IMG/VR virus record: IMGVR_UViG_3300021437_000088 | Span: 1-22,415 of that record | Strand: one strand, 5' to 3' | Source: a virus | Length of the DNA stretch: 22,415 nt | In this document: one piece after another, positions 7,087 to 22,415 of the stretch | How the letters are laid out: each line of letters opens with the position of its first letter | Position numbering within the stretch: position 1 is the stretch's first letter | Position numbers and translations under genes: made by a program | The notes under the pieces: model-generated | What the model saw: only the letters and a program-made list of their open reading frames with translations | Told to the model about the DNA's origin: nothing | The model's database searches: none

Positions 7087-7466
7087 TAGGAGCATATTTA
7101 ACCCGAATTTTACTGCAAAATACCGATTTACAGGCAATTATTGATAGTAAAATAAAGCCGATTCACGGTACAGAGTTAGATTCATTCCCTGCTGTTCGCT
7201 ATGTTGAAGATGCTTTTGACCCTGATTTGTGTGCCGATGGTGGTGTGGGTAATTACTCAATTAAGTTTCTGATTTTTGGAGAAACTTACTCGCAGACAAA
7301 GACAATACAAGATTTGATATATCAGGAACTTGAGCGATTTACAGATAGTATGATTCTTTTTTGCTATCAGTCTTCAAGTCTGGATATTGCTGAGAGTGTC
7401 TCAGATATTAACGGTTATTCAATTTATAGTACTGAACAAAATTTCAAGGTAATAACTCAGAAATAA
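7083..7466 (+). CDS. tail completion/terminator protein, DUF3168-like
   Basis: A 127-residue protein in the position of the tail terminator (lambda gpU analogue), between the gp10-like gene and the tail tube gene. The sequence fits the DUF3168 family pattern: an N-terminal helix (YLTRILLQNTDLQAIIDSKI), FPAVRYVED, then a strand-helix pair (YSIKFLIFGETYSQTKTIQD) and YSIYSTEQNFKV at the end. The terminator hexamer caps the tail tube and sets the surface that joins to the head. It overlaps its neighbours on both sides, ATGA upstream and TAATG downstream. Confidence 0.8.
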   Translation: MIGAYLTRILLQNTDLQAIIDSKIKPIHGTELDSFPAVRYVEDAFDPDLCADGGVGNYSIKFLIFGETYSQTKTIQDLIYQELERFTDSMILFCYQSSSLDIAESVSDINGYSIYSTEQNFKVITQK

Positions 7467-7912
7467 TGGCAATTACAACAAAAGTACATGGTAGTAACAT
7501 TTTTTTGTTTGCTACCATTGGAGGTACAAAAAAGCTTGTAGGCTCAACTACAAAATTTGACACTGGCGTTACGGGAACTCCGATTGATGTTAGTTCGGTA
7601 GAATCAGGACTAAATAAAGAATATTTGCCTGCTTCGATGATGGATACAGATGTATCATTCGACGGTATTTACAAGGTTTATACTTCTGGTGATTTGACTG
7701 CTAAAGCTCAAGTAGATGATTTTTATGCAGCACTTAAAACAGGTGTTACGGTAGAAATTTACAAGGGTGCGGCTATTACTACTGGTTCAGTGGTTGACAA
7801 GGGGACTTTAGTTATCTCATCAGCAAAAGAAACTCATTCGATGGCAGATAAAAGTACTTATTCGGTAGCTGGTAAGATTTCTGGTGGCTGGGCTTCTGTA
7901 ACATTACCTTAA
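7466..7912 (+). CDS. major tail tube protein
   Basis: A 148-residue protein rich in Thr, Gly, Ser and Val with the alternating strand pattern of tail tube proteins: GSNIFLFATIGGTKKLVGSTTKFDTG at the N-terminus, then DVSSVESGLNKEYLPASMMDTDVSFDG, a Val-Glu-Ile-Tyr strand, and a C-terminal SVAGKISGGWASVTLP. It polymerises as stacked hexameric rings around the tape measure to form the flexible tail. The position just before the chaperone pair is decisive. A hairpin lies immediately downstream, which may help keep this transcript abundant relative to the genes that follow. Confidence 0.9.
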   Translation: MAITTKVHGSNIFLFATIGGTKKLVGSTTKFDTGVTGTPIDVSSVESGLNKEYLPASMMDTDVSFDGIYKVYTSGDLTAKAQVDDFYAALKTGVTVEIYKGAAITTGSVVDKGTLVISSAKETHSMADKSTYSVAGKISGGWASVTLP

Positions 7913-7969: not shown

Positions 7970-8410
7970 ATGGAACAACTAACAATTTTAAACAGTGCCA
8001 AAGGGCGTTTTGAATTTCCTTTAGGCGACAAAGTATTTAAGTTTTTCTTCACAATGCGTTCTTACGAGATTATTAAAGAACGTTACAATATTGGCTTATT
8101 AGCTATTGCAGGCGATTTCTCAAAAATGGTAAATGTCTGTGTTTATTCTGGCTTGGTAGGTGCTTCTTCTCAAAACGGTTTATCTGAAAACTTTAGTCTG
8201 GTAGATTTTTACGATTTAGTCGATGAATTAGAGCCGACGGAAGAGCAAAGGATTGATATTTTTAAGGCGTTTCTTGATTCTATGGGTTTAATGGCTCGAA
8301 AGTCTGGAAAATCTGAGGAAGAAATCAAAATTGCAGAAGCTGAGGGAAAGCGTATGAGGGAGCTATTTCAAGATACTTCCCCAACAAAAACCGAGACAGC
8401 GAACTTGTAA
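7970..8410 (+). CDS. tail assembly chaperone, upstream frame (lambda gpG analogue)
   Basis: A 146-residue protein between tail tube and tape measure, the place of lambda G. It starts MEQLTILNSAKGRFEFPLGD with strands VFKFFFTMRSYEIIKERY, then a helical middle with the acidic DELEPTEEQ stretch and a charged C-terminal region. These chaperones bind the tape measure protein during tail assembly and are not kept in the virion. Near codon 125 the message contains GGGAAAG in frameshift phase, so some ribosomes should leave this frame and continue into 8350-8751, giving a product of about 260 residues. The unshifted product ends at TAA 8408-8410. Confidence 0.85.
   Translation: MEQLTILNSAKGRFEFPLGDKVFKFFFTMRSYEIIKERYNIGLLAIAGDFSKMVNVCVYSGLVGASSQNGLSENFSLVDFYDLVDELEPTEEQRIDIFKAFLDSMGLMARKSGKSEEEIKIAEAEGKRMRELFQDTSPTKTETANL
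8344..8350 (+). promoter_or_regulatory. programmed -1 ribosomal frameshift slippery heptamer
   Basis: GGGAAAG here reads as G GGA AAG in the chaperone frame, fitting X XXY YYZ. After a -1 slip the P-site tRNA re-pairs with GGG and the A-site tRNA with AAA. The -1 frame has a TGA at 8341-8343, directly before the site, and is then open to 8751. This is the same heptamer as the lambda G/GT site, in the same gene context. Confidence 0.88.
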
Positions 8411-8751
8411 AAAGTCTTGAATCGTTAGCCAACACAGAGGATTTAATGAAATTGTGTTTTGGTCGATTGCTGATAAGACCTAATGAGTTTTGGAAAATGC
8501 GTCCTAAAGATGTATTTCTAATGTTGAAAGGTCATTCTGAACAGTTCAAACAGCAAGAAGAATTCAAGATTCATTTGACTCGTGAAATAATGGCTGCGAT
8601 TTATAATAATGGTTTTAATGATCGAAAAGAAGGAAAGACAGGTGCTGAAATATGGCCACTTGATTCTGACCCAAAACCAGAAATACAACAAGTAAAAGAG
8701 TACTCCTTAGAAGAATTACAACACATAGAATCTTTATTAGCGAATTTATAG
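8344..8751 (+). CDS. tail assembly chaperone, -1 frame extension (lambda gpT analogue)
   Basis: An open frame from just after TGA 8341-8343 to TAG 8749-8751, one base back from the upstream chaperone. It is best read as the C-terminal part of a frameshift fusion, with 127 residues from the first frame and 133 from this one (8350-8751). The extension contains SELVKSLESLANTEDLM, then CFGRLLIRPNEFWKMRPKDVF, typical of the T-like half, which often has an 'F/Y-x-x-x-P-x-E-F-W-x-x-T/R-P' motif, and ends with a Glu-rich helix. The first ATG at 8446 could allow internal initiation, but the conserved-looking sequence starts upstream of it. The next gene begins immediately after the stop. Confidence 0.85.
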   Translation, partial: GKAYEGAISRYFPNKNRDSELVKSLESLANTEDLMKLCFGRLLIRPNEFWKMRPKDVFLMLKGHSEQFKQQEEFKIHLTREIMAAIYNNGFNDRKEGKTGAEIWPLDSDPKPEIQQVKEYSLEELQHIESLLANL

Positions 8752-11259
8752 ATGGCAATTAACAGCAAACTTACTCTTAGCAACGAACGATACTTGCAGG
8801 CATTAGAAGAAGCAGGCGGAGCATTGGCGAAGTTTGTCGGTCAGTCTTCTATACAAATGCAAGCCTTGTACAGGGAATCTGATTATCTGAATAGAGGATT
8901 GGCAGGTGGTATCGGACGATTTTCTAATGATATGAAGAGTTTTGGACAAAGTATGTCCATGTACGTTACATTACCAATTTTGGCGATGAGTGGTGCAATG
9001 ATTTCCGCTTATGCTAAAATAGATTCTTTGAGCCGTGGGCTTGATGCCATTACTGGAAGCACGCAAGCTACTGGTGAACGGATGAAAGAGTTAATGGAAG
9101 TTTCTAAGTTGCCGGGTTTAGGTTTTGAGGAAGCTGTTCAAGGGGATGTTCGTTTACGTGCGATTGGCTTTTCGGCTAAAACGTCAAAAGATGCTCTTTT
9201 ACAATTTGGAAATGCTATTGCAAGTACAGGTGGCGGAAAGTTGGAATTAGGTACTGTCATTACGCAATTGGGGCAAATGGCTTCTAAGGGTAAAGTATTA
9301 GCTGAAGACTTAAAACCAATTATTAATGCTTCTCCTTTAGTTGCAAAAGCCATAAAAGATATGTTCGGAACGGTAGATTCTGAGCAGATTTCTGGTAAAC
9401 TAAAAGCAGTAGGTAAAGATTCTCAGCAGTTTATTGAAGAACTTATTACAAAATTATCTGAATTACCACGTGTTACGGGTGGAATTGGGAATGCTCTTGA
9501 AACTTTTGGCGACTCTGCAAAGATTGCTATGTCTGGCTTCGGTGAAGCTTTGGATAAAAATTTGGGAATTACTGATAAGTTAAATGCACTGGGAAATACA
9601 ACCTTAAATTTGAGTGAAGGATTTAAATCATTAGACCCCAATTTACAGAAAATAATTATTGGCGTTGTTGGTTTTGTAGCCGTTGCTCCTCCCCTATTGG
9701 CTATTCTGGGAACTATTGGCGGAATGGTTGCCAGTGGAGGTGCTATTGCTACTGGTTTTGCCTTACTCACGGGGCCAATTGGTTTGGCAGCGGTTGCTAT
9801 TGCTGGATTTACGGATTTGGTAATTACTAACTGGGATTCTATTAAACAAACATTACGTGAAACTGGTATTTGGGATGCTGTTACAGAATATGTAAGTGTT
9901 TTTACTTCTACTATTTCAGCCGTTTTCACAGGTATAAAAACCGTGGTAATCACTACTTGGGACGCTATAAAAAGTACCGTAATGCCTATTGTGGAATCTA
10001 TCGGAATAGGAATTGCGATTGCTTTTCGCTCGATTGTTGGAGTGGCGACTGGTGTAATGAAAATTCTAAAAGGGATTTTTACACTTAGTTTTTCAGATAT
10101 TTGGGGCGGTGTAAAAGATGTGATTGCGAATGTTTTCATTGGTATTTTTGGTATAGTAAGTAAAGGGGTTGCAATTGTAGCATCTTTATTTGGCGGACTA
10201 GTTAAGTCTATAAGTTTCGGGAAATTTGGCGATAGTATTCTGCAATGGTCAGATACAATAGCAAAAGAAAATTGGACACTAAATAAAGTGAGTAGTCCTG
10301 CGAAAAGTATTGCAAGTGTAATGAGTCAAGGTACAGGCTCAACTACTACCAACGATTATACAAATGTAAATACAGGAGGTGGAAAGGGTAAAAAATCTGC
10401 TTTACCTGCACAATCTGAGGAGTTTAAGGCTTATTTTAAGGAGCTACAAGACAGAGATAAGGTTCTTGATGAAATCTATAAGAAAATTCAAGTAATGATT
10501 CCGAAAGGGGTTGAACTTGGGAAAATAGGCTCAAGGCTGATAAATGGTGATGATGCTTTTGGCAAAGTTGGAGCTGTTGACAATAGAAAGAATCTTATTT
10601 CTGGCTTAGTCGATAGCTTAAACAAGTCAATTCCTGCATTACAAGATAAACTAAAAGAAGCAGCAGGAACAATTGGTTCTGGAGTTAATTCACTTTATGA
10701 AAGGACAGTTTCCGCATTCAGTAAGTTTGATAGCAGTATTACTGTACCGATGATTGATGTATTTATGAATTTGAACGAAAGCTTGAATGGCATATTACAA
10801 CAAGGTGCTGAGAGTGTATTATCTGGAATCGGAAATATGGCTGGAAAAATGATTGTCGGTGCTTCATCTTTTAAAGATGCTGGTTCTGCAATCTTGGGAG
10901 TTATCGGAAGTATATTCTCGCAAATGGGGGAACAGTACATTAAAGCTGGGGTCATATTAGCAGGATTAGCACTTTTCGCAGCAAACCCTATTACAGGTTG
11001 GGCGGCAATGATTGGCGTAGGTTTGGCATTAACTGCCCTTGGCGGTGCTATTTCTGGGGCGATGTCTGGAGGTGGTAGTAGTTCTGGGGCTTCTTCTTAT
11101 TCTTCGGCTTCAAGTTATTCGCCTTCTGCTTCGAGTGCTGGAAGTATGTCGATGCAAAGAGCGATTCAAGTTGAAGTAATAGGAACAACGAGCATAAAAG
11201 GGAATGATTTGTATATCTCGTATCAAAATGCGAGTAGGTCTTATAAAACAAAAAGATAA
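8752..11259 (+). CDS. tail tape measure protein
   Basis: An 835-residue protein whose length sets the tail length; at about 1.5 angstrom per residue this suggests a tail near 125 nm (inference). The N-terminal part has a tape-measure domain with SFGQSMSMYVTLPILAMSG and repeated short helices about 80-280. Hydrophobic segments occur at about 301-362 and again near 737-770, as is usual for proteins that may enter the host envelope during DNA ejection. The far C-terminus is a Gly/Ser/Ala-rich low-complexity tail (about 772-805). Between are two Trp-containing repeats with 'TTWDAIKST' and 'TNWDSIKQT', typical of these proteins. It follows the chaperone genes directly. Confidence 0.93.
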   Translation: MAINSKLTLSNERYLQALEEAGGALAKFVGQSSIQMQALYRESDYLNRGLAGGIGRFSNDMKSFGQSMSMYVTLPILAMSGAMISAYAKIDSLSRGLDAITGSTQATGERMKELMEVSKLPGLGFEEAVQGDVRLRAIGFSAKTSKDALLQFGNAIASTGGGKLELGTVITQLGQMASKGKVLAEDLKPIINASPLVAKAIKDMFGTVDSEQISGKLKAVGKDSQQFIEELITKLSELPRVTGGIGNALETFGDSAKIAMSGFGEALDKNLGITDKLNALGNTTLNLSEGFKSLDPNLQKIIIGVVGFVAVAPPLLAILGTIGGMVASGGAIATGFALLTGPIGLAAVAIAGFTDLVITNWDSIKQTLRETGIWDAVTEYVSVFTSTISAVFTGIKTVVITTWDAIKSTVMPIVESIGIGIAIAFRSIVGVATGVMKILKGIFTLSFSDIWGGVKDVIANVFIGIFGIVSKGVAIVASLFGGLVKSISFGKFGDSILQWSDTIAKENWTLNKVSSPAKSIASVMSQGTGSTTTNDYTNVNTGGGKGKKSALPAQSEEFKAYFKELQDRDKVLDEIYKKIQVMIPKGVELGKIGSRLINGDDAFGKVGAVDNRKNLISGLVDSLNKSIPALQDKLKEAAGTIGSGVNSLYERTVSAFSKFDSSITVPMIDVFMNLNESLNGILQQGAESVLSGIGNMAGKMIVGASSFKDAGSAILGVIGSIFSQMGEQYIKAGVILAGLALFAANPITGWAAMIGVGLALTALGGAISGAMSGGGSSSGASSYSSASSYSPSASSAGSMSMQRAIQVEVIGTTSIKGNDLYISYQNASRSYKTKR

Positions 11260-13406: not shown

Positions 13407-16400
13407 TGGCAAAATCACTTTATACAGTTTCAGAACCGATTGATATTGTTACACTTTACGAGCAGAGTTTCAATTTGTCGGTATTGTTCAAAGACGGAAC
13501 ACAAAGAAAGAATATTTCTGGAGCAAGCTTCAAATTTGAGGTTTTAGATTATTATGCGAAGGAAACTTTCTTGAGCATTACTTCTGATAGTGTAGATGAT
13601 ACTAAGAAGATTACCTTAGAATCTACTCTGGGCGATGCTGTTTTAGACTTGATTAAGATTAAGGCTGATTTTATCGGGACGAGTAATAAAGCTCCAGAAC
13701 CGTTAAATTATACTTATAGGTTGAGCTATATAGTTGATGGTGTTGATTTCTTTGCCTTGAATGGCAAGTTTATCGTGTTGGAGTCGATGAATAGTTATTA
13801 CGAAGACGGACTCGTGAATAATAGTTCGGTAGTAGTGAGTTTTACGGAAACAACGGTAACAGTTGAAATTGGTGATGCTTCTGAACAGGTAGAGCTTGCA
13901 AGAGCTTTGAAAAACCAGACTGAAGCATTTAAAAATCAAGCTTCTACTTCGGCGGCTAATGCTTTAGTTAGCGAACAACACGCACTTACAAGTGAACAGC
14001 ACGCATTAACAAGTGAGCAAAATGCTTTAGATTCAGCTAATTTGGCAAGTCAAAAAGCTGATTTAATTCCGCAGTATTTAGGTACTTATAATGTAGCGAC
14101 TAATACTCCTACATTGAACCAGACCCCTACAAATGGTTTACCTAATGGTAGTTATTATGTAGTAACTGTTGGTGGAAATATTGGTTTTGCTGGTAATAAT
14201 TTCACAAGTGGAACTACATTCAATATTGGCGACAAATTATCTATTAAGGGAAATAGATATGATAGGATTCCTTTTGAGATTGCTGATAATTCTATTATAC
14301 CAGAAAAGTTGCAATTTATCGGAAAGTCTAAAAACTTAGCAAATCCATCTACTTTTACAGACAATTTCTTTCTTGAAAATGATAATACAGCAATTGCGAA
14401 CTCTTCGTATGGCTATACTGATTATATTCCTGTAACAGCAGGTTTGGCATATTCTGGCTCAGATGGAGTTAATGGTATGCGAAAAACTTGTTATTACAAT
14501 GCGAGCAAACAATTAGTGGCAGGAGGTAGTACAAATGCAATTACTACATTTACAGTACCTTCGGGAGTAGCATTTGTAAGAGTTACTTATTATACTATTA
14601 GAAAAACAAGCTTTCAATTTGAGCAAGCTTCTACTCCAACAAGCTTTGTGCAGTATAATTATTTACTTAATGTTGTTAAGATTGACGCAAAAGATGTAAT
14701 TGAAAGCTCATTAAAAAGAATGATTTCAGATGCAGATTATCAGTCATTTATTAATAAGGTTAATAAGTCTGATATAGGCTATATAGAAGGTAAAAACAAA
14801 TATGATGGTGGATATGTAGTTGACTCTTTAGTAATAAATACGACAGGAGCATTTACATTTGCATCTGGATTTGTAAGAACTACTTCACAAGCTGTACTTC
14901 CAAATCAACAGTACACGCTTTCTGGAATTAATTACATTACTTTTAATAGTATAGCAATTAGATTTGAAGATTCAAACAATAATCTTATTTCTTACATTAG
15001 TAATGCACAAGGAGGCGTTACGGGTTATCCTGTTACATTTACTACGCCTTCTAATTGTGCTTATGTCGTGTTTACTATTAGACATAGTTCTAATTCAGGG
15101 GTTGCTATTTCTACTGTAATTTCGACAATACAATTAGAAAAAGGTGCTATCGTAACTTCTTATGTTCCATATACTTCTGCAATATATATATTGTCTATTT
15201 TAGGTGTACAATTGCCTGTTTTGGGTGTAGCAGGGAAAAAAGGAGATATTACTTTGTACGCTTCTGATATTGTAGGCTTACAAACTGCATTAGATACAAA
15301 GCTAAATATTGCAGATATTACAATAGAGAATGTCGGAAAGTCTAAAAACTTAGCAAATCCATCTACTTTTACAGACAATTTCTTTCTTGAAAATGATAAT
15401 ACGGCAATTGCATATTCTTCTTATGGTTATACCGATTATATTCCTGTAACAGCAGGTTTGGCATATTCTGGCTCAGATGGAGTTAATGGTATGCGAAAAA
15501 CTTGTTATTACAATGCGAGCAAACAATTAGTGGCAGGAGGTAGTACAAATGCAATTACTACATTTACAGTACCTTCGGGAGTAGCATTTGTAAGAGTTAC
15601 TTATTATACTATTAGAAAAACAAGCTTTCAATTTGAGCAAGCTTCTACTCCAACAAGCTTTGTGCAGTATAATGCTGGAATAGATACTATTACAAAAATA
15701 TTAGGGTATGCTTTGGCAGGAAGTAATAGTAATACTACAAGTATCGATACAATCACATTTGAGTTAAGTGACAAAATACAATTTGAGGGTTGTAGTTATT
15801 TAGAAAGCTTGTATAGCTTAAAAGGAAAATCATACATACAAAAGTTAGCTTCAATGACTGATTGGAATATCGGTAATAGAGGTGTAGCTGGTAGTAGAAT
15901 GATTGATATTGTAGATAGATTAAGGGCTAATACTTCCGTATTTGGTATTATTCCAAAGTCTTTCAAGCCTACATATATTTTTCTTGGAAATAATGGAAAT
16001 GAGTATTTTCCATCGAATGGTGAAACTTTAGATTTATATTTAGAGCAATTCAAAATTGCTATTGAGCAAGTGCAAGCTTTAGGAGCAAAGTCTATTTTAG
16101 GCACGGACTATCATACAAATACAAATGTATGGCTTGAATCTAATTTACAGGAATTTGCAAAAAGAAGAAAAATACCTTATATAGGAATTGGTACTTATGG
16201 CTCAAAAATGATGAGCAACGGCTATTTAAACTTTTGGGTTGGTTCACATCCTGGATTAAGAGTTAATTCATTTATTAGCAACGAACTTAATTATTTCATT
16301 TCTCAGTTGCCTCGTCCACGCAAGGGATTGAAAATTTACAGGAACAGGAATACTATTTCTGCAATTTCAGAATTGAATTATGATACAATTGAGCAAAGAC

Positions 16401-21833: not shown

Positions 21834-22415
21834 TTATTTATTGAAATAATAATAATTATAAACTCTCAAAGCCTCTTGATAATCTTCCTCAATTAATTTA
21901 TAATCTTGAGAATTGGGATCTGTTTCATAATATTGTCTATTTTTAAAGAAATACCTCCATTTGGTACTCTCTTTCTCCTTACATCCAATCTTTATGGTAT
22001 TGTGTGAGACTAATATATCCCACTTGCCTTTGTTTTTAATTCGTATAAAAGTATTTTTTTTAAAATTATCTGGCAATGAAGTGATAGAAGTACCTTCAAG
22101 GTTAAGATAACCTCCAACACTCAAATTATCTGGCAATGAAGTGATAGAAGTACCTCTAAGGTTAAGAGAATCTCCAACACTCAAATTATCTGGCAATGAA
22201 GTGATAGAAGTACCTCTAAGGTAAAGAGAACCTCCAACACTCAAATTATCTGGCAATGAAGTGATAGAAGTACCTTCAAGGTTAAGATAACCTCCAACAC
22301 TCAAATTATCTGGCAATGAAGTGATAGAAGTACCTCTAAGGTTAAGAGAACCTCCAACACTCAAATTATCTGGCAATGAAGTGATAGAAGTACCTCTAAG
22401 GTTAAGAGAACCTCC
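21834..22415 (-). CDS. leucine-rich-repeat protein, 5' end beyond the window
   Basis: The frame runs to the right edge without an ATG start; the nominal start at 22376 is an internal TTG (the Leu of SLPDNL), so the gene enters from outside. About 5.9 repeats of 20 residues are visible, each SLPDNLSVGG(S/Y)LNL(R/E)GTSIT with small variations. This length and 'LPxxL...L.L.GT.I' rhythm match the 20-22-residue bacterial LRR type seen in IpaH/SspH-like proteins. A distinct C-terminal part of about 75 residues follows, beginning NFKKNTFIRIKNKGKWDIL and ending with a Tyr-rich tail. LRR solenoids bind proteins or glycans. A target cannot be inferred. Confidence 0.85.
   Translation of the reverse strand, partial: GGSLNLRGTSITSLPDNLSVGGSLNLRGTSITSLPDNLSVGGYLNLEGTSITSLPDNLSVGGSLYLRGTSITSLPDNLSVGDSLNLRGTSITSLPDNLSVGGYLNLEGTSITSLPDNFKKNTFIRIKNKGKWDILVSHNTIKIGCKEKESTKWRYFFKNRQYYETDPNSQDYKLIEEDYQEALRVYNYYYFNK
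22063..22415 (-). repeat. 60-bp tandem repeat array in the leucine-rich-repeat gene
   Basis: Units align exactly at a 60-bp period from 22081 to the window edge, with a partial unit at 22063-22080. The unit at 22081-22140 is identical to that at 22261-22320. Comparing the array with itself at a 180-bp offset leaves 2 mismatches in 155 bp, fewer than at 60 bp (2 to 4 per 60). Confidence 0.95.

Follow-up and report, generated by a model that had tools for sequence, protein, structure and literature searches.

A probable lambda-type -1 ribosomal frameshift in the tail assembly chaperone gene of a phage related to Spirosoma-type prophages

The gpG and gpGT proteins of phage lambda have been described, and frameshifting between genes g and t is widely conserved in long-tailed phages (PMC5009743). 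The heptamer G_GGA_AAG is highly shift-prone in E. coli (PMC5009743), and 6-7% frameshifting was measured in a tail assembly chaperone cluster (PMC3711429). In the lambda genome, GGGAAAG is found in the phase G_GGA_AAG at positions 10109 to 10115 of NC_001416, and the same heptamer had been predicted to serve as a frameshift site in the virus examined here.

The DNA that we analyzed (the window) was a 22,415-nucleotide stretch of virus record IMGVR_UViG_3300021437_000088. In the window, two overlapping ORFs separated the major tail protein gene from the tape measure gene, and the second ORF was in the -1 frame relative to the first. The gene order was major tail protein, G, T, and tape measure, with terminase, portal, capsid, and neck genes positioned 5' of this group; the features of the chaperone locus described below are on the forward strand. 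The major tail protein gene (7466 to 7912) was assigned via PHROG 1407 (E=6.4e-9), and the tape measure protein gene (8752 to 11259) matched PHROG 58 and, above the cut-off, PF20155 TMP_3 (E=2.2e-15). G (7970 to 8410), the putative zero-frame tail assembly chaperone of 146 amino acids, was identified as an ORF and by its position before T and the tape measure gene. Distant relatives of G were detected in two loci (L182 and L179) via tblastn, and fold comparison yielded weak matches to viral tail assembly chaperone models; no solved structure matched G by profile, and none matched convincingly by fold.

T (8350 to 8751) is the predicted -1 frame extension, with 134 amino acids after the slip and a TAC_6-like core. 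This assignment was based on PF09550, coding score, alignment with relatives, and a structure model (mean pLDDT 78.6). The match of the window T to PF09550 Phage_TAC_6 had an E value of 1.2e-4 and a score of 22.8 bits, compared to a curated cut-off of 23.4 bits, and aligned T domains of two relatives scored above that cut-off (L111, 26.1 bits; L217, 24.5 bits). No solved structure matched T by profile, and fold comparison returned weak viral matches only.

Two repeats were observed elsewhere in the window. A duplicated 300-bp segment (14319 to 14618 and 15333 to 15632; 98% identity, 1014 bp apart) was located in a putative tail fibre gene of 1464 residues. In addition, 60-bp tandem units at 22003 to 22415, which extended to the end of the record, gave rise to repeats of about 20 residues (LPDNLSVGGSLNLRGTSITS) in a reverse-strand ORF (21834 to 22376).

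The original prediction placed the slip site at 8342 to 8350. The heptamer was indeed present, but its true span was 8344 to 8350, as two bases too many had been given. The G reading frame at this point was GAA GCT GAG GGA AAG CGT, and hence the in-phase word was GGGAAAG, read G_GGA_AAG; its identification as a slippery heptamer was based on the sequence, the phase, and recurrence in relatives. The other sequence features that had been predicted were borne out. A TGA at 8341 to 8343 shut the -1 frame directly 5' of the heptamer, and the -1 frame therefore opened exactly at 8344 to 8350. From there it was open for 135 codons, in agreement with the predicted length of about 400 bp, up to a TAG at 8749 to 8751, and the ATG of the tape measure gene began at the next base (8752). 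Translation of the fused G-T product yielded the expected 260 residues.

The -1 frame had the character of a coding sequence when scored with the window's own codon usage. Specifically, the segment that precedes any ATG (8344 to 8445) had a score of +3.2 in the -1 frame, compared to -8 and -14 in the remaining two frames, and the rest of the -1 frame (8446 to 8748) had a score of +21. When the codons of the window G gene were shuffled, only 2.2% of the shuffles had a strong heptamer in phase inside the G/T overlap, and 18% had any X_XXY_YYZ heptamer there. The forward ORFs of the window contained 42 X_XXY_YYZ heptamers in phase, and only 2 of them preceded more than 34 open -1 codons, namely those at 8344 (135 codons) and 7439 (157 codons). 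The latter, an in-phase AAATTTC (7439 to 7445), lay where the tail terminator ORF ends. The long -1 frame that follows AAATTTC is simply the next gene, and the placement of this heptamer is probably a coincidence, because the major tail protein starts from an ATG of its own (7466). The number of GGGAAAG words in the window (2, compared to 2.4 expected) was as expected, and word count was dropped as a line of evidence. The case rests on comparative evidence rather than on a single-site statistic.

Downstream of the heptamer, a possible stimulatory hairpin was located a few bases 3' of the site (8355 to 8383). This hairpin was weak (-7.9 kcal/mol; z -1.9 over 35 nt) and fell in the 4th percentile of 35-nt windows. 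Strong downstream structure over 90 nt was rejected (z -0.27).

Relatives were reached via portal and tape measure searches, which led to one locus (L063) as well as prophages from the order and family of Spirosoma profusum, and the corresponding regions were retrieved. The best tape measure relatives were prophages of the Spirosoma-containing family (matches in 25 of 222 genomes at E <= 1e-20), as anticipated when the phage was called Bacteroidota-like. Pattern scans of viral contigs based on one protein at a time (G, T, portal, or terminase) yielded no relatives, and tblastn searches in phages were likewise negative for G, T, the major tail protein, and the neck proteins.

In all 38 G/T overlaps (the window and 37 related phage or prophage loci), T was in the -1 frame relative to G, although this uniformity is partly a matter of selection, as most loci entered the set via a -1 pair; Cellulophaga phage phi39:1, which has another offset, was seen but stands outside the set. 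In-phase X_XXY_YYZ heptamers were present in 30 of the 38 overlaps, compared to 6.8 in codon shuffles, and strong slippery heptamers were present in phase in 27 of the 38, compared to 1.6 +/- 1.25. These comparisons do not translate into a probability because the relatives are partly dependent (L217/L218 and L225/L227 are near copies). GGGAAAG itself was carried by the window and six relatives (L063, L107, L133, L198, L225, and L227), and further types in the overlaps included GGGAAAC, AAAAAAG, AAAAAAC, CCCAAAC, and others. One overlap (L184) contained neither an in-phase X_XXY_YYZ heptamer nor GGGGTTT. Alignment with relatives had been proposed as a check on the conservation of both GGGAAAG and -1 coding; the -1 arrangement was kept, but the heptamer was not conserved. 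Relatives that keep both ORFs and lack the heptamer had been named as evidence against a frameshift. Most relatives were of this kind, yet they retained the -1 offset and another slip-like site was present, and we conclude that this refuter was badly framed.

Several tape measure matches with no recognisable G/T pair in front (L216, L219, L221/L235, and L228) were left out of the count. Some of these homologues were the best matches to the window's tape measure protein, and in L221/L235 a long ORF that matched no family searched was located about 0.5 kb upstream of the tape measure gene. A separate low-GC group (L239, L240, and L243, with L241 and L242 alongside) had a short T ORF in the -1 frame, with an overlap of about 15 nt with G. 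In L239, L240, and L243, the G C terminus was ...EAKND and T opened on SKK, and these sequences suggest a slip site in an A run.

The arrangement in the window could also be read as two genes, with T starting at ATG 8446 through its own initiation or through coupling to the end of G. As the original prediction anticipated, the -1 frame has its first ATG at 8446 to 8448, and a gene caller would pick this ATG and split the protein in two; AGAGGA is located a few bases 5' of it. However, the sequence, the core model, and the structure model all point to a likely mis-annotated start. The conserved T core began at residue 29 of the window T frame in a core model that was built partly from the very sequences on which it was then placed, and ATG 8446 corresponded to residue 35. 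Residues 31 to 39 formed a single helix in the structure model, and a start at ATG 8446 would be predicted to cut this first helix of the core. Moreover, the frame ahead of ATG 8446 scored as coding, and no ATG, GTG, or TTG was found ahead of the core in the window's T frame. The T frame was likewise without an ATG ahead of the core in 34 of 37 overlaps, and separate initiation could therefore not make the T domain whole. Thus, we consider two separately initiated genes very unlikely.

Even less likely, in our view, is that the overlap reflects a faulty assembly or the decay of a broken gene. As a metagenomic virus record, the window offers a single copy to judge from, and some tape measure relatives are found in loci that lack a recognisable G/T pair; nevertheless, the -1 arrangement recurred in 37 other loci, many of them from cultured genomes, and slip-like sites were far above chance. 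We give equally little credence to a fusion made by transcriptional rather than ribosomal slippage. Some relatives (L050, L072, and phi39:1) have long A runs at which RNA polymerase could slip, but the longest run at the window site was three bases (GGG and AAA).

The sequence, its phase, the coding character of the -1 frame, and the conservation of the -1 arrangement are supported directly, and these features indicate that the tail assembly chaperone gene very probably undergoes a programmed -1 ribosomal frameshift. From these features we infer that slippage occurs, how efficient it is, and what the two products do. Under a programmed frameshift, most ribosomes would read ORF 7970 to 8410 and produce the 146-residue G. 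A minority would slip back one base at G_GGA_AAG, with the glycine and lysine tRNAs re-pairing on GGG and AAA, and would then continue in the -1 frame to 8751 and produce the G-T fusion of 260 residues. If the two products act as in lambda, G would bind the tape measure protein and the T part would recruit the major tail protein, with the ratio of G to G-T being important for tail assembly.

The exact site in the window had no orthologous support at close range, as the nearest relatives use another site. Eight overlaps contained GGGGTTT, read NNG GGG TTT A, compared to 0.18 in shuffles, and GGG accounted for 17% of the glycine codons in these loci. This word is non-canonical and contains no in-phase X_XXY_YYZ heptamer. 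The carriers of G_GGG_TTT_A were L182, L188, L189, L196, L220, L223, L224, and L232, plus a later viral contig (L233, 4971 to 4978). Three of them (L182, L220, and L233) were among the window's nearest relatives based on G, T, and tape measure similarity, and they carried GGGGTTTA in the position occupied by ATG GGT TTA in the window, about 20 codons upstream of the window's GGGAAAG. At this position, the window has GGGTTTA (8284 to 8290) in the canonical X_XXY_YYZ phase, and the -1 frame from this word was closed after 10 codons by a TGA (8314 to 8316). In the GGGGTTTA group, the T frames became alike from Gly-Val-Tyr onward, which places the shift at GGGG, a position that we infer and do not read directly because both frames constrain those bases. 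A full-text literature search for frameshifting at GGGGUUU or GGGGTTT returned no paper that seemed relevant from its title and abstract. We find the arguments evenly balanced for a history in which relatives retain the -1 fusion even as its slip site shifts in position and type. In this history, re-pairing at the widespread, non-canonical G_GGG_TTT_A would probably involve the glycine tRNA only, and the window would have lost this older site as GGGAAAG took over about 20 codons downstream.

A programmed frameshift would correct the gene model for this phage and its relatives, which would make a 260-residue fusion and a 146-residue protein and not two unrelated small genes. It would also add a lineage of Spirosoma-type prophages to the known range of the lambda-type tail frameshift, and the relatives form a set in which the turnover of slip sites can be studied.

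Among described systems, the locus most resembles the lambda gpG/gpGT pair. The order V-G-T-H, the -1 overlap, and G_GGA_AAG near the end of G are shared with lambda, and the lambda-type reading of the locus stands on this basis, with a downstream part that is TAC_6-like. In contrast to lambda, in which the zero frame runs 6 codons past the site, it runs 20 codons past the site in the window. The T part had no BLASTP match to lambda T, and thus "lambda-type" is a functional description only. In the case of PF09550 Phage_TAC_6 and TIGR02216 (the rcc01693 family), the window T core matched the first half of the profile, but the score of T was slightly below the Pfam cut-off and far below that of TIGR02216. 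The gp19/gp20 genes of phage phi39:1, which are annotated as two hypothetical proteins, are also sited before the tape measure gene, and the gp20 frame aligned with the T core of L063 at 33% identity. The difference is that gp20 is at +1/-2 of gp19, with a run of eight A (L002, 10685 to 10704), and this sequence points to a -2 or +1 shift or to slippage during transcription. Virion proteomics notes accompany phi39:1 gp14 to gp18 and do not accompany gp19 and gp20. As in HK97-type and related chaperone frameshifts, to which we liken the locus by description, a gene pair would be joined by a frameshift. The locus is a well-supported, ordinary case of the known tail-chaperone frameshift family, with a mechanism predicted from sequence.
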